Of a stretch of 64,000 nucleotides of DNA, positions 2,836 to 11,438 are shown piece by piece; the first letter of the stretch is position 1; every line of letters begins with the position of its first letter. The translations under genes and the position numbers were made by a program. The notes under the pieces are model-generated. The model was not told the DNA's origin and did no database searches. It was given only the letters and a program-made list of their open reading frames with translations. This stretch comes from Paraburkholderia fungorum (lineage in GTDB: Bacteria; Pseudomonadota; Gammaproteobacteria; Burkholderiales; Burkholderiaceae), in the NCBI RefSeq assembly GCF_900099835.1, contig NZ_FNKP01000001.1, positions 3,162,001 through 3,226,000 of the forward strand, written 5' to 3'.

Positions 2836-4113
2836 ATGATGAGCATGATCGAACTCGATCCTCCCGGCTTTCAGCCGCCGCGCCCGGTAGCAGGCGACGA
2901 AGGCTCCCGGCGCACCGTTCTATACGGCGGCTACACCGTATTCAGCGTGTTTCAGCCGGTTTTTTCGGTGTCGCACCGGCGTGCGATCGGGTACCACGCG
3001 TCGCTGCGCGCCCACGACGAACATGCGCAGCAGGTGCCGTCGCACGAAGTTTTCACGCAGGCCGCCCGACGCGGTGACCTGCTGGAACTCGGCCGGCTGG
3101 CCGAATCGCTGCATCTCGGCAATTTCAACGCCTTCGACAGCCACGACGAATGGCTCTTTCTGAGCCTGCACCCAGCGGCGCTGATGGACACGAGCTACGG
3201 CGATGCGCTGCTTGCCGGCCTCAAAGCCCTCGGCTTGCCGCCTCAGCGCGTGGTGCTGGAGGTGTCCGAACAGGCAGGTGGTGAAACCACGCGCTTCGCC
3301 GAAATCATCGATGCGCTGCGCAAATCCGGCTTTCTGATCGCGCTCGACGGCTTCGGCGCGAAGCATTCGAACATTGACCGCGTGTGGAATCTGCGGCCGG
3401 ACATCGTCACACTCGATCGCTGCATTCTCGCGCAAGCCAGCGAACACTCGCATATCGAACGCGTGCTGCCTGGCCTCGTTTCGCTGCTGCACGAATCCGG
3501 ACAACTTGTGCTGATGGGCGGCCTCACCACCGAGCGCGACGCGCTGATCGCGCTCGAATGCAACGTGGACTTTGTCCAGGGCGCATTCTTTGCGGGTCCG
3601 AGTGTCGAGCCGGTTAAACCGCAAGCGGCGGCCGGTTTGATGGACTCGCTTTCCGCAGCACTTCGCGAACGGGTCACCGCACGCGAACGCGCACAATCCA
3701 CGCGACTCGCACCCTACGTCACCGCACTGGAAACCGCAGCCGCACAATTGGTTGCCGGTGACTCGATTTCAGCAGCAACCGCACCGCTACTTACGCTCGG
3801 CGAAACAGCCCGCTGCTTCGTACTAGACGGGTCAGGCCGCCAAATTGGCGATAACGTACTGCCACCGGGGCGCACTTCACAACGCGCCAAACGCTTCCGC
3901 CCGCTGCTGCATTCGGAAGGTGCGAGCTGGGAACGCCGACCGTACTTTATCCAGGCGATGCGCGTGCCCGGCCAGGTGCATCTCACTCCCCCCTATCTGT
4001 CGATCAATGAGGCCCACCTGTGCGTGACAGCTTCGATCGCCGCCCACACGCCGCACGGCACACAGGTGCTATGCGTAGACATCAACTGGGAAGTCGCCGC
4101 TCACCGGAATTGA
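2836..4113 (+). CDS. Degenerate EAL-domain protein with C-terminal PAS/PDC-like domain (probable non-catalytic c-di-GMP effector)
   Basis: The 425-residue protein has an EAL fold at about 35-260 and a C-terminal sensor-like domain at about 270-425 (WERRPYFIQA, HLCVTASIA, VLCVDIN), reminiscent of YkuI-type PAS-like tails. Catalytic residues are largely lost. The EAL motif region reads YHASLRA (53-59) instead of YEALLR, the metal-binding Asn is Ser110, the DDFG motif is DGFG (171-174), the catalytic Lys is Thr192, and the EGVET glutamate is Gly. Only Glu142 (LEVSEQ), Asp171 and Gln248 remain. It is therefore expected not to hydrolyse c-di-GMP but may bind it or a protein partner. ATG 2836 is chosen because the upstream TTG option adds unconserved sequence; no Shine-Dalgarno is visible. 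Its 3' end overlaps the convergent sigma gene by 45 bp. Confidence 0.82.
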   Translation: MMSMIELDPPGFQPPRPVAGDEGSRRTVLYGGYTVFSVFQPVFSVSHRRAIGYHASLRAHDEHAQQVPSHEVFTQAARRGDLLELGRLAESLHLGNFNAFDSHDEWLFLSLHPAALMDTSYGDALLAGLKALGLPPQRVVLEVSEQAGGETTRFAEIIDALRKSGFLIALDGFGAKHSNIDRVWNLRPDIVTLDRCILAQASEHSHIERVLPGLVSLLHESGQLVLMGGLTTERDALIALECNVDFVQGAFFAGPSVEPVKPQAAAGLMDSLSAALRERVTARERAQSTRLAPYVTALETAAAQLVAGDSISAATAPLLTLGETARCFVLDGSGRQIGDNVLPPGRTSQRAKRFRPLLHSEGASWERRPYFIQAMRVPGQVHLTPPYLSINEAHLCVTASIAAHTPHGTQVLCVDINWEVAAHRN

Positions 4114-5052
4114 CGGAGCGGGATTTTGCTGGATTCGTGTGAGCAGTTGCGTGACTGCCGCACGACCTACCACGCGATTTAGAGCTTGCAGACGCTCCTC
4201 GCCGGTCACGATGCGCAACGAGATTATCTTCGTCGACCCCACCACGCCGTCTGTCCACACGTCGAGCAGACCGACCACGTCGCCTTCGAAGAACAGCACG
4301 ACGCACATCGCTCCCTGCACAGATACCACCTCGGCCGTGTTCGCCTGCCGCGCAAGCGACGTAACGGTGTCCACCCACCCTGCCGAAGCCGGCTCGCGCG
4401 CGGACATAGCGGCGCAAACGGGCGCGTCGCTGACAATTTCCGGCGAGTCGCTGAAGAGCCGCAACAGATCTGTTCGATCCCGCGCCTCCAGCGCTGTGCG
4501 CAGCCGCTCTACGATCTGTGCATGCGCGGCAGGATCAGGGCGTTGTGACGGTGCACCCGCGCGTTGCAGACGCGCTTTGGCCCGATGGACGATCTGCCGG
4601 CAAGCGCCCGGCGTGCGCTCAAGAATGCTCGCAATCTCTGCGTAATCGCAGTCGAAAGCTTCATGCAGCACGAACGCAGCGCGTTCGTCCGGCTTAAGAC
4701 GTTCGAGCAGCAGCATCACGCCATAAGACATCTCCGCTGCCCGCAAAGCCAACTCTTCCGCCGACGGCGCAACCTCATCGAGCCACGGCTCAGGTAGCCA
4801 ACCCGAAGCCTGAGACGCGCGTTCGCGCTGCGCCTGCCGCAAACGGTCGATTGCCGTACGGGTGGTAAGCGTGGTGAGCCAAGCAGCTGGAGTTTGCACC
4901 GCTCGTGTATCGGCCAGATGCCACTTGAGCCAGACGTCCTGAACTACGTCTTCCGCTTCGGCGCGGCTGCCGAGCATTCGGTACGCCAGCGCAATCAGGC
5001 GGGCGCGCGCTGCCTCGAAACTGGATGCCTTGTCGTTTCCCTGTTCCATCAT
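4069..5052 (-). CDS. ECF RNA polymerase sigma factor with fused SnoaL-like domain (ECF41/SigJ-like)
   Basis: This 327-residue ECF sigma factor has region 2 at about 12-75 (RMLGSRAEAEDVVQDVWLKW), the WLPEP linker motif typical of ECF41 at 85-89, region 4 at about 105-165 (DYAEIASILERTPGACRQIV), and a SnoaL-like C-terminal domain to 327. In ECF41 proteins that domain controls sigma activity in place of an anti-sigma factor. Both signatures of that domain are altered: the usual DGGG site reads SDAPV (208-212) and the NPDKL site reads TGEERL (283-288). The start has GGAG a few bases upstream. A perfect ECF41-type promoter lies upstream on the same strand, implying autoregulation. The divergent neighbour is a ClpP paralogue with its own copy of that promoter. 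Confidence 0.88.
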   Translation of the reverse strand: MMEQGNDKASSFEAARARLIALAYRMLGSRAEAEDVVQDVWLKWHLADTRAVQTPAAWLTTLTTRTAIDRLRQAQRERASQASGWLPEPWLDEVAPSAEELALRAAEMSYGVMLLLERLKPDERAAFVLHEAFDCDYAEIASILERTPGACRQIVHRAKARLQRAGAPSQRPDPAAHAQIVERLRTALEARDRTDLLRLFSDSPEIVSDAPVCAAMSAREPASAGWVDTVTSLARQANTAEVVSVQGAMCVVLFFEGDVVGLLDVWTDGVVGSTKIISLRIVTGEERLQALNRVVGRAAVTQLLTRIQQNPAPSIPVSGDFPVDVYA

Positions 5053-5145
5053 GCGTAGATCTCCAGATTCGTGGTGGTGAAAAATGCTGCCCGCTTGCTT
5101 CGGTGCCGTCCTTTTGTTTCTGACTTTTGATGTTCTTCCCAGCTT

Positions 5146-5172
5146 GACGATCTGGCTACCGACGATGTGACA
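5146..5172 (-). promoter_or_regulatory. ECF41-type promoter facing the sigma-factor gene
   Basis: On the minus strand the sequence reads TGTCACA (5172-5166), exactly 16 bases, then CGTC (5149-5146). This matches the TGTCACA-N16-CGTC consensus of ECF41 sigma factors, as I recall it. The predicted transcript start is near 5140, giving a leader of about 88 nt to the sigma start codon. Confidence 0.75.
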
Positions 5173-5192
5173 ACAAACGAAAAAAATATTTC

Positions 5193-5219
5193 TGTCACAT
5201 CGCAGCCCTCTCCTTCGTC
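5193..5219 (+). promoter_or_regulatory. ECF41-type promoter facing the clpP-like gene
   Basis: On the plus strand TGTCACA (5193-5199) is followed by exactly 16 bases and CGTC (5216-5219), a second perfect match to the ECF41 consensus. It is back-to-back with the sigma-gene promoter, with 20 bases between the two -35 elements. The predicted leader to the clpP ATG is about 86 nt. Confidence 0.75.
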
Positions 5220-5310
5220 AAATGAGCAATAACCGGCGCATGGGGCGCGTGGTTTCAAATCGGCCGCTGCTATCAGGCATTCGCGTCGCGCCGCTTATAA
5301 CGAGGCACCT

Positions 5311-5958
5311 ATGCATTCCAGCCATTCCTTTATCACCGGTCTCGGCCTTGTACCTACCGTGATCGAACAATCCGGCCGCGGCGAACGTGCGTACGACATT
5401 TATTCCCGTCTGCTGCGCGAACGCATCGTGTTTCTGGTCGGCCCGGTGAATGATCAATCGGCTAGTCTGATTGTCGCGCAACTGCTGTTTCTGGAATCGG
5501 AAAACCCCGACAAGGATATTTCCTTTTATATCAACTCGCCGGGCGGCTCGGTGTACGACGGCCTTGCGATTTACGACACCATGCAATTCATCAAGCCTGA
5601 AGTATCGACGCTTTGCACAGGCTTCGCCGCGAGCATGGGCACCTTCTTGCTGACCGCGGGCCAACGCGGCAAGCGCTATGCATTGCCGAACGCCCGCATC
5701 ATGATTCACCAGCCATCCGGCGGCAGCCAGGGCACGGCGGCAGACATCGAAATTCAGGCGAAAGAAGTGCTTTATCTGCGAGAGCGGTTGAATGCAATAA
5801 CCGCCGAGCGCGCCGGGCGCAGCGTCGAAGAGGTAGCGCGAGACTCCGATCGCGACAACTTTATGTCCGCGCACGAGGCCAAGGAATATGGCTTGATCGA
5901 CGACGTGCTGGAAACACGCGCTGCGCTCGGCGACCCCAGTCGTTATCGGGATATGTAG
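5311..5958 (+). CDS. ATP-dependent Clp protease proteolytic subunit paralogue (ClpP-like)
   Basis: This is a 215-residue ClpP serine peptidase, which in the family forms a double-heptamer barrel fed by ClpX or ClpA unfoldases. The catalytic triad is complete: Ser108 in AASMG, His133 in MIHQPSGG and Asp182 in RDSDRDNF, with spacings matching E. coli ClpP. The YINSPGG oxyanion-loop motif and the [13 protein letters not shown]-terminal region are conserved. It is not next to tig or clpX, so it is probably a second ClpP. The start has GAGG six bases upstream. An ECF41-type promoter precedes it and is shared, back to back, with the divergent sigma gene, so it is likely induced by that sigma factor. 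Confidence 0.92.
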
Positions 5959-6153
5959 GGTTGGTGAGTCGCCGCGTCATGCCATGAAACTTGCGACAGT
6001 CAAGGAACGATGCTCACCGGCAGCACTGAAATTTCCACATGCTTTTGCTGAACCTGTCGGTGCGCAAGTGCCACAAATTCTGCTCACCTTCGCTGGAATC
6101 GCTATCATGGTCGCGATTCGTCGAGTTCGACGATCGCTTCAATGGAGATATAC

Positions 6154-7620
6154 ATGGCGTCATCCAACGAAACCGTCAGCATGGCGCTATTCTGCGACTT
6201 CGAAAATGTCGCGCTAGGCGTGCGCGACGCGAAGTACGACAAGTTCGATATCAAGCTGGTGCTCGAACGTCTGTTGCTCAAGGGCAGCATTGTCGTGAAA
6301 AAAGCCTACTGCGACTGGGACCGCTACAAAAGTTTTAAAGGCGCGATGCACGAGGCCAATTTCGAATTGATCGAAATTCCGCACGTTCGCCAATCGGGCA
6401 AGAATTCCGCCGACATCCGGCTCGTGGTCGATGCACTCGACCTCTGCTACACGAAGTCTCACGTCAATACGTTCGTGATTATCAGCGGCGACTCCGATTT
6501 TTCACCGCTGGTGTCAAAGCTTCGCGAAAACGCCAAACAGGTGATTGGCGTGGGCGTGCAGCAATCCACGTCGGATCTGCTGATCGCGAATTGCGACGAA
6601 TTCTTTTTTTACGACGACCTGGTGCGCGAAAGCCAGCGGGCAGTCGCCAAACGGGAGTCCACGCGTCCGCCCAAAGATGCTCAGCAGGCGGCCAGACGCG
6701 CGCCGGGCGAGGAGAAGCCCCGTCACAAGGACGACCTGGAAAAGCGGCGCACCAAAGCGGTCGAAATTGCAGTGCAAACATTCGACGCGCTTGCGTCGGA
6801 GCGCGGCGACAGCGGCAAGATCTGGGCGTCGGTGCTGAAGAACGCGATCAAGCGTCGGAAGCCGGACTTCAACGAGACGTACTACGGTTTCCGCGCGTTC
6901 GGCAATCTGCTCGAAGAAGCGCACGCGCGTGGGCTGCTCGAATTTGGCCGTGATGAGAAGTCGGGTGCGTATGTGTATCGGAGTAACGCTGCGAGTGCTG
7001 CGGGCGAGAATATGAATGAGCCGGTCGAGGCCGAATCGTCCGAGCAGTTGTATGAAACGCAGGTTGCTGAGGCTGTGGTGGCCGAGACAGTTGCCAAGCA
7101 TGAGTCTCGGCGTCGTGGCCGAGGCAATCGCAAGCAAGGCCGTGGCCAGCAGGAAGCCGTTCACGACGAGCGGACCATCGCCGGGCAGGCGATCGACGTT
7201 CAACCGGGGGAAAGCGAACGGTATGAGCAGGATTGGTCTACCAGCGAGCCTGTTTTCGAACAACCGGATGCGGCTTCGGTAGCGTCGGAAGCCTCTTCAT
7301 TCGCACCAGAACGAGGCGCGGTTGAATCGGAGAACGCCATCGCCGGAGCGCTCCCCGCTGGGAGCGAAGAGCACCAGGAAGCAGACGACAAGCCCGCTGA
7401 ACGTCGCAAAACAAGAGCACCGCGCAAAACAGCCGCGAAGAAAGCGAAGAAAAGCGCGCCGCGATCAATCGATGAAATACCCGAGATCGCCGTGCCTGCT
7501 GAGCCGACCGCGCCGTCGAACGATGTGCAGGAGGCTCCGGTTGCCGCAAAGAAGGCCGCACGAAAAGCCGCGCCGCGAAGCCGGCGTCCGCGCAAGGCAG
7601 CCACAGAGAGCGACTCTTAG
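6154..7620 (+). CDS. NYN-domain / LOTUS (OST-HTH) RNA-associated protein with lysine-rich histone-like tail
   Basis: This 488-residue protein has three parts. Residues 8-165 form a NYN (PIN-like) domain with the expected acidic residues in CDFENV, NSADIRL and ISGDSDFSPL; such domains are predicted metal-dependent RNases. Residues about 195-280 form an OST-HTH/LOTUS domain (KAVEIAVQTFDAL, GSVLKNAIKRR-like helix, YGFRAFGNLLEEA), an RNA-binding module. The remainder is Glu/Ala-rich disorder ending in Lys/Arg/Ala blocks (APRKTAAKKAKKSAPRS and KKAARKAAPRSRRPRK) like H1 or AlgP tails. The start at 6154 is set by GGAG six bases upstream; an earlier in-frame ATG at 6142 lies over that site. Function is inferred from domains only. 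Confidence 0.85.
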   Translation: MASSNETVSMALFCDFENVALGVRDAKYDKFDIKLVLERLLLKGSIVVKKAYCDWDRYKSFKGAMHEANFELIEIPHVRQSGKNSADIRLVVDALDLCYTKSHVNTFVIISGDSDFSPLVSKLRENAKQVIGVGVQQSTSDLLIANCDEFFFYDDLVRESQRAVAKRESTRPPKDAQQAARRAPGEEKPRHKDDLEKRRTKAVEIAVQTFDALASERGDSGKIWASVLKNAIKRRKPDFNETYYGFRAFGNLLEEAHARGLLEFGRDEKSGAYVYRSNAASAAGENMNEPVEAESSEQLYETQVAEAVVAETVAKHESRRRGRGNRKQGRGQQEAVHDERTIAGQAIDVQPGESERYEQDWSTSEPVFEQPDAASVASEASSFAPERGAVESENAIAGALPAGSEEHQEADDKPAERRKTRAPRKTAAKKAKKSAPRSIDEIPEIAVPAEPTAPSNDVQEAPVAAKKAARKAAPRSRRPRKAATESDS

Positions 7621-11339: not shown

Positions 11340-11438
11340 ACCGGCCAGACAGTACGCCTGCATGAACGGCCCCAAGCGCAAACAGCCAATCACCACTGCG
11401 GACGAACGGCTCAGTTACCAACTGTGACAAACTTTTGG

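Follow-up and report, generated by a model that had tools for sequence, protein, structure and literature searches.

Which gene does an ECF41-like sigma factor serve when its divergent neighbor encodes a subunit of the ClpP protease? This question is raised by a locus of Paraburkholderia fungorum, within a stretch of 64,000 nucleotides that was analyzed as a whole and is called the window here. A sigma factor gene and a clpP paralog, whose product we name ClpP2, stand back to back across a 258-bp gap, and the original prediction held that two promoters in this gap place the protease subunit under an autoregulated sigma factor. The features of the locus, in window positions, are as follows.

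4069 to 5052, minus strand: ECF41-like sigma factor gene, 327 aa, with sigma2, sigma4 and a SnoaL/NTF2-like C-terminal domain
4072 to 4539, minus strand: C-terminal domain of the sigma factor, residues 172-327, SnoaL/NTF2-like by predicted fold
4786 to 4800, minus strand: WLPEP motif, sigma residues 85-89, in the sigma2-sigma4 linker
5053 to 5310: intergenic region between sigma and clpP, 258 bp
5053 to 5145, minus strand: from the -10 element to the sigma start codon, 93 nt, with GGAG 8 nt before the ATG
5146 to 5172, minus strand: predicted sigma-facing promoter, TGTCACA (5166-5172), N16, CGTC (5146-5149)
5193 to 5219, plus strand: predicted clpP-facing promoter, TGTCACA (5193-5199), N16, CGTC (5216-5219)
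5220 to 5310, plus strand: from the -10 element to the clpP start codon, 91 nt, with GAGG before the ATG
5311 to 5958, plus strand: clpP paralog encoding ClpP2, 215 aa, with a complete catalytic triad
5632 to 5634, plus strand: codon of catalytic Ser108 of ClpP2
5707 to 5709, plus strand: codon of catalytic His133 of ClpP2
5854 to 5856, plus strand: codon of catalytic Asp182 of ClpP2

The predicted divergent promoter pair and its conservation

The gap contains, as predicted, two exact copies of TGTCACA-N16-CGTC on opposite strands, back to back with 20 bp between them. The prediction had taken this motif for the consensus and spacing of ECF41 promoters, in agreement with Wecke et al., who report it as the ECF41-dependent promoter (PMC3426412). 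In the rpoE9 operon of S. meliloti, a transcription start was mapped 9 nt past the same motif (PMC3616915). If transcription at our locus begins 5 to 12 nt past CGTC, the leaders on both sides would be about 80-88 nt long, which roughly fits the 88 and 86 nt first proposed. No Rfam match was found in 4900-6200, a range that includes the clpP leader, and a search of 4950-6150 for sigma-70-like promoters found 0 (shuffles gave 0.8). At the other end of the sigma gene, its 3' end overlaps that of an EAL gene on the plus strand by 45 bp (4069-4113).

When spacers of 14 to 18 bp were permitted, the window held one additional match (11401-11429, minus strand); 100 shuffles averaged 0.27 matches under the same rule, and none reached 3. 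A form with 2 mismatches permitted occurred 12 times in the window against 21 expected. Since this looser form is not enriched, the signal lies in the exact pair. Across the 8.58 Mb genome there are 4 exact copies (3 for the pattern read backwards), and two of the four are the intergenic pair described here.

Is this arrangement a property of one genome or of a lineage? We sampled 200 genomes from the family and searched them for relatives of the sigma factor (E <= 1e-40) and for ClpP genes (E <= 1e-60). A sigma relative was present in 92/200 genomes and two ClpP genes in 38/200, and in 35 of these 38 (our own genome and 34 relatives) the second clpP has an adjoining divergent sigma gene. A second genome scan confirmed 392 relatives, and among the best 80 of the 392 a divergent clpP stands beside the sigma gene in 80/80. 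These best 80 come from Paraburkholderia, Burkholderia, Caballeronia, Trinickia, Pararobbsia, Herbaspirillum and Pseudoduganella. The two locus sets overlap in genomes (L113 and L016, for example), and relatives are non-independent samples. A class-wide search with A1 returned matches at 1e-45 in 7/369 genomes, one of them our own, and no clpP was found within ~1.5 kb on either side of the 7 loci in the other six. For alignment A2, 54 of the 80 loci were tried and 51 were used together with the window; L169 and L179 were left out for match ranges that run past a stop, and L192 for being short. A3 omits six further loci with long inserts or a short end (L136, L138, L140, L143, L152 and L189).

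We then asked how the promoters fare in these loci, using a relaxed motif, [TC]GTCACN-N16-CGTC, in which the first base is T or C, the seventh is free and the spacer is 16 bp. It occurs on the clpP side of 35/35 loci from the family sample and on the sigma side of 32/35. Among 98 distinct intergenic regions drawn from both sets, 96 carry it on the clpP side (L147 and L189 lack it), 95 on the sigma side (L032, L035 and L037 lack it) and 93 on both. The strict TGTCAC form is found in 73, 90 and 72 of the 98, respectively, and exact TGTCAC and CGTC at N16 occur on both sides in 65/81 loci (the best 80 of 392 plus our own). In 200 rounds of dinucleotide shuffles, no region carried the motif both ways. 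With the boxes masked, the median pairwise identity of the regions is 0.49, compared with a shuffled mean of 0.47; when the regions are grouped by single linkage at 60%, both motifs turn up in some member of 21 of the 22 clusters, and at least one motif in some member of all 22. Because identity outside the boxes is near random and both motifs recur in 21/22 clusters, the motifs stand out from otherwise diverged DNA. The distance between the two boxes ranges from 19 to 94 bp and is 20 bp in 67/93 regions, and the inner spacer is always 16 bp. Conservation of the gene pair and of both motifs had been named beforehand as a point on which the original prediction should stand or fall, and with 93/98 regions carrying the motif both ways, the prediction holds on this point.

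Some loci depart from the consensus in a regular way. In L030-L035, L037 and the Trinickia loci among L180-L186, one or both promoters mostly have a CGTCAC -35 element, with C for T, as if sigma factor and promoters had changed together. Several of these genomes also encode an unlinked ECF41 with TGTCACAA promoters.

A wider regulon found little support. TGTCACR-N16-CGTC occurs in 50 places in six genomes (our own and five relatives), and its backwards control in 30. The sigma-clpP locus accounts for 12 of the 50, two per genome, and the 38 that lie elsewhere are near the control of 30, a count that speaks neither for nor against a hidden second target among them. We examined 26 of these 38 sites, using a rough GC3 rule to call genes. 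Twenty are inside genes and 6 between genes; a gene lies no more than 300 bp ahead of 1 of the 6, and the same is true of one of the sites inside a gene (L103). A broader set of targets was rejected: the sole recurrence among the 26 was one site inside a gene, common to two close relatives. The proposed genome scan thus yields four exact copies with two at this locus, and no second target that recurs across the six genomes. This fits the conclusion of Wecke et al. that an ECF41 sigma factor as a rule has one target close by, a gene for a carboxymuconolactone decarboxylase, oxidoreductase or epimerase (COE) (PMC3426412).

Unlinked ECF41 loci from the same family served as a positive control. 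Stretches around these loci contain the strict motif in 28/32 cases, and all five candidate targets scanned (5/5) are carboxymuconolactone decarboxylases. At about 12 of the 32 (L058 at 5075-6143, L060, L069, L074 and others), the motif lies just ahead of a gene for a LysR-type-like regulator, an identity confirmed by Pfam in 4/4 scanned; at L058 it lies beyond a decarboxylase-like gene. The LysR-type gene is possibly another non-COE output of ECF41.

The clpP-linked sigma factors as a branch of their own

The original prediction called the sigma factor ECF41-like, and we wanted to place it more precisely. Pfam finds Sigma70_r2 and r4_2 in the protein, and the best NCBIfam models, SigJ (203 bits, cut-off 271) and SigX4 (202 bits, cut-off 323), both score below their cut-offs. 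Predicted structure and fold searches identify a SnoaL/NTF2-like C-terminal domain, an extension of the ECF41 kind, with low model confidence for the last 13 residues. Three short motifs were compared between the clpP-linked proteins and the unlinked ECF41 proteins of the same family. WLPEP is present in the window protein and 9/34 relatives (10/35 of the clpP-linked branch) versus 32/32 unlinked ECF41; NPDKL, judged by the pattern N-P/R-D/E-K/R/N, in 0/35 versus 31/32; and DGGG in 0/35 versus 32/32. DGGGK is a signature of the ECF41 extension. In the sigma tree, the clpP-linked proteins form a branch of their own with support 100/100; the tree leaves out L200 as well as L085, L089, L091 and L094, which are second copies of linked loci and were also left uncounted. 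By these sequence features, the window protein belongs to an ECF41-like sister group rather than to canonical ECF41. The likeness therefore stands for the promoter and the SnoaL-like tail, and membership in ECF41 proper does not, given the separate branch that lacks NPDKL and DGGG.

What may this mean for the switch? ECF41 is reported to stay compact through a contact between NPDKL and the linker. Since NPDKL and DGGG are missing from all 35 members examined, the switch of the sister group probably differs, and the clpP-linked proteins would be gated in another way than ECF41. Their genomic neighbor differs as well: the COE gene is replaced by clpP in 35/35 loci of the family sample and in 80/80 of the best 80 of 392. 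The missing COE neighbor alone does not exclude membership in ECF41, because ~30% of ECF41 have none according to Wecke et al. (PMC3426412). The other nine sigma matches in our own genome are short and weak, with 26-35% identity and E >= 2.7e-8.

The linked sigma proteins vary from ~245 to 439 aa between species, with varied inserts near residues 208-225, where model confidence is low. In Herbaspirillum autotrophicum (L178, 4850-5320), an ORF of 156 aa without a Pfam match starts 6 bp past the sigma gene on the same strand and could encode a partner of the sigma factor in Herbaspirillum. Among 10 neighbor genes from 5 loci, none has an anti-sigma domain, and 5 of the 10 match no Pfam family, which leaves room for a partner protein.

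We also looked at the loose C-terminal end as a potential degron. The final residue is alanine in 83/97 distinct linked proteins, compared with 72/381 other genes and 7/32 unlinked ECF41. Counted by tail cluster, alanine ends 8/17 against a baseline of 0.19 (p ~0.008, post hoc), and the signal is owed mostly to a single group of 69, in which the sigma tail and the EAL gene overlap. An FPVDxxA tail shared by many Paraburkholderia was considered as a conserved degron and rejected: the tail is encoded antisense to the end of the EAL gene, and what is conserved there may be the EAL protein, so the conservation is no evidence of a degron. The terminal alanine of the linked proteins is possibly a degron or else chance.

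ClpP2, the apparent target

ClpP2 appears to be a genuine ClpP. It matches the Pfam ClpP family at 281 bits and scores above the curated NCBIfam cut-offs of NF001368 (331 bits, cut-off 249) and TIGR00493 (323.7 bits, cut-off 308.6). The triad Ser108-His133-Asp182, noted at the outset for the window protein, is present there and in 43/43 ClpP2 rows. In a tree of 43 ClpP2 and 21 housekeeping ClpP rows (62 of the 64 different), one branch splits the two sets with support 100/99. With the two on separate sides of this branch, the paralog looks old rather than like a recent copy. Fixed or near-fixed differences between ClpP2 and housekeeping ClpP (ClpP1) include P/E45, Y/S82, S/L136 and Q/R140, together with the near-fixed D/A83 (40/43), T/M103 (42), T/Q142 (39) and A/S144 (42). 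Positions 82-83 follow the SPGG-S-V stretch and positions 136-144 follow the catalytic His; the strands at both places presumably line the substrate cleft. Because fixed differences fall on these strands, it is plausible that the cleavage preference of ClpP2 differs from that of the housekeeping enzyme. The P45 change is nothing special, as GPV is also found there in a ClpP structure solved from another genus. At housekeeping clpP, no [TC]GTCACN-N16-CGTC was seen in 21 loci of ~2.3-3.6 kb each. A 2025 review of P. xenovorans LB400 records two copies of clpP and, for gene copies at large, suggests that they have differentiated in function (PMC12117332). The sigma-clpP pair of LB400 lies at about 4,022,936-4,024,841 of NC_007951.1.

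Three genomes separate the paralog from the sigma factor. G013, G034 and G051 keep clpP2 and have no sigma relative within the 6.6 kb examined around it, and the same 6.6 kb contain no copy of the motif in its strict or its relaxed form. Sigma gene and motifs are absent together, as would be expected of motifs that serve the linked sigma factor, and the retention of clpP2 suggests that ClpP2 can be useful without the sigma gene. All three genomes encode an unlinked ECF41 elsewhere (L074-L076). Around the loci, the EAL and MFS genes of the window neighborhood still adjoin in L050 and L051, with clpP2 of L050 ~60 bp past the EAL gene on the same strand; unlike these two, L052 has other DNA in between.

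A predicted sigma-protease module, its alternatives and its relatives

We consider it likely that the locus is a small conserved module in which the ECF41-like sigma factor reads both promoters and so drives its own synthesis and that of the triad-intact ClpP2. The genomic comparisons strongly support a private, autoregulated sigma circuit that makes extra ClpP, and the role of ClpP2 would probably be that of a spare subunit made on the sigma factor's command. In the proposed sequence of events, the linked sigma factor, as the reader of the motif, would direct RNA polymerase to both TGTCACN-N16-CGTC promoters; transcription from the sigma side would raise sigma synthesis, and transcription from the clpP side would yield ClpP2. 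The C-terminal domain may switch the sigma factor through a contact or ligand other than the ECF41 contact between NPDKL and linker. ClpP2 may then work with ClpX or ClpA, and under some condition the cell would thereby gain a protease that prefers other cleavage sites. A bolder version, which we think unlikely, has the NTF2-like domain bind a small molecule, whereupon ClpP with an altered pocket floods the cell, the cuts made by ClpXP or ClpAP change, and the pulse ends itself as the new protease clears the sigma factor by way of its loose C-terminus. The altered pocket in this version rests on S82Y, A83D, M103T, L136S, R140Q, Q142T and S144A relative to housekeeping ClpP.

Could the two boxes instead be a single site? 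An inverted repeat, CGATGTGACA-N20-TGTCACATCG, recognized by some other regulator would explain why the arms of the boxes in the window make a 10-bp palindrome and why a 20-bp distance prevails (67/93 regions). Elsewhere, however, the gap is 31, 50, 78 or 94 bp, the bases past TGTCAC differ between the sides in many regions, and CGTC at N16 lies outward on both sides, which an operator does not need. Because the gap varies and the inner spacer is constant at 16 bp, we rejected the palindromic operator in favor of two promoters, and an inverted repeat seems very improbable to us. A different division of labor, in which the sigma factor controls itself alone or another ECF reads the motif and clpP2 is a neighbor with a different promoter, draws on the survival of clpP2 in the three sigma-less genomes. 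We hold this to be quite improbable: the clpP-facing motif is present in 96/98 regions and missing at 3/3 sigma-less loci, the interval 4950-6150 has no sigma-70-like promoter, and the nine remaining sigma matches of our own genome are too short and weak to favor another ECF.

Two further readings accept the shared control and assign it another meaning. ClpP2 might be mainly a brake: by breaking down the sigma factor, or by releasing it from its own C-terminal domain, the protease would become part of the signaling. Divergent shared control in 80/80 of the best 80 of 392, the low confidence of the last 13 sigma residues and the alanine that ends 83/97 linked proteins are all in line with this, but the alanine signal comes mostly from one group of 69 and shrinks to 8/17 by tail cluster, which leaves a brake improbable. 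We assign a similarly low probability to an ordinary ECF41 with an unusual neighbor, where the novelty would amount to one more target gene. The same promoter, the SnoaL-like fold and WLPEP in the window protein all suit an ordinary ECF41, and yet the clpP-linked proteins have their own branch (100/100), NPDKL and DGGG are missing in 35/35, and the pair is kept across several genera. Of the readings weighed here, two promoters read by the linked sigma factor remain the one we prefer, and autoregulation with the ClpP paralog as apparent target, as first proposed, is likely in view of the two conserved divergent promoters; the stress-specific role proposed along with it is conjectural.

The closest known system is ECF41, studied in B. 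licheniformis and R. sphaeroides (Wecke et al. 2012, PMC3426412), with which the module shares the promoter, an apparently single local target, the SnoaL-like extension and, in the window protein and close relatives, the WLPEP linker. ECF41 targets a COE gene, whereas the clpP-linked group, which lacks NPDKL and DGGG, occupies a separate branch and has no WLPEP in 25/35 members, apparently targets clpP. SigJ of M. tuberculosis (5xe7) and SigG1/ECF56 of Streptomyces tsukubaensis (7qh5) likewise join a sigma2-sigma4 core to SnoaL_2; SigJ is the best match by sequence profile and SigJ and SigG1 are the best by fold, although global superposition of the full-length sigma model on SigJ is poor (TM 0.18-0.21). 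For SigG1, too, NPDKL is reported to be missing (PMC7730460), and a separate antagonist, RsfG, is described. ECF294, exemplified by Herbaspirillum hiltneri (PMC8999054), has a SnoaL-like extension, and the clpP-linked group includes Herbaspirillum; the group may already bear a number in the 2021 ECF classification, perhaps as ECF294 or a portion of that class, and a protein search from the Herbaspirillum autotrophicum member did not have H. hiltneri among the 120 matches listed.

ECF control of clpP has a precedent. In Corynebacterium glutamicum, the ECF sigma factor SigH reportedly acts on clpP1 and clpP2 (PMC3489674). SigH differs in that it is paired with an anti-sigma factor, RshA, serves a broader regulon and has as its targets these two genes rather than an extra paralog in a private two-gene module. 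Second ClpP proteins with a role or specificity of their own are described for P. aeruginosa (ClpP2, PMC8141521) and M. tuberculosis (ClpP1P2, PMC3613350), where the accessible parts of the papers do not mention pairing with a sigma factor. Our literature search, which took in a minority of the subscription papers, found no report of an ECF41 or SnoaL-type sigma factor acting on ClpP. The idea that ClpP is a new output thus appears to hold for sigma factors of the ECF41 or SnoaL type and gives way to SigH for ECF sigma factors at large. The module, which is small and occurs in laboratory strains, offers a case for the rewiring of a ligand-type domain fused to a sigma factor, and it may help to explain the second ClpP found in many Burkholderiaceae. 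Compared with ECF41, this sister group retains the promoter code, and its apparent output is a protease subunit.
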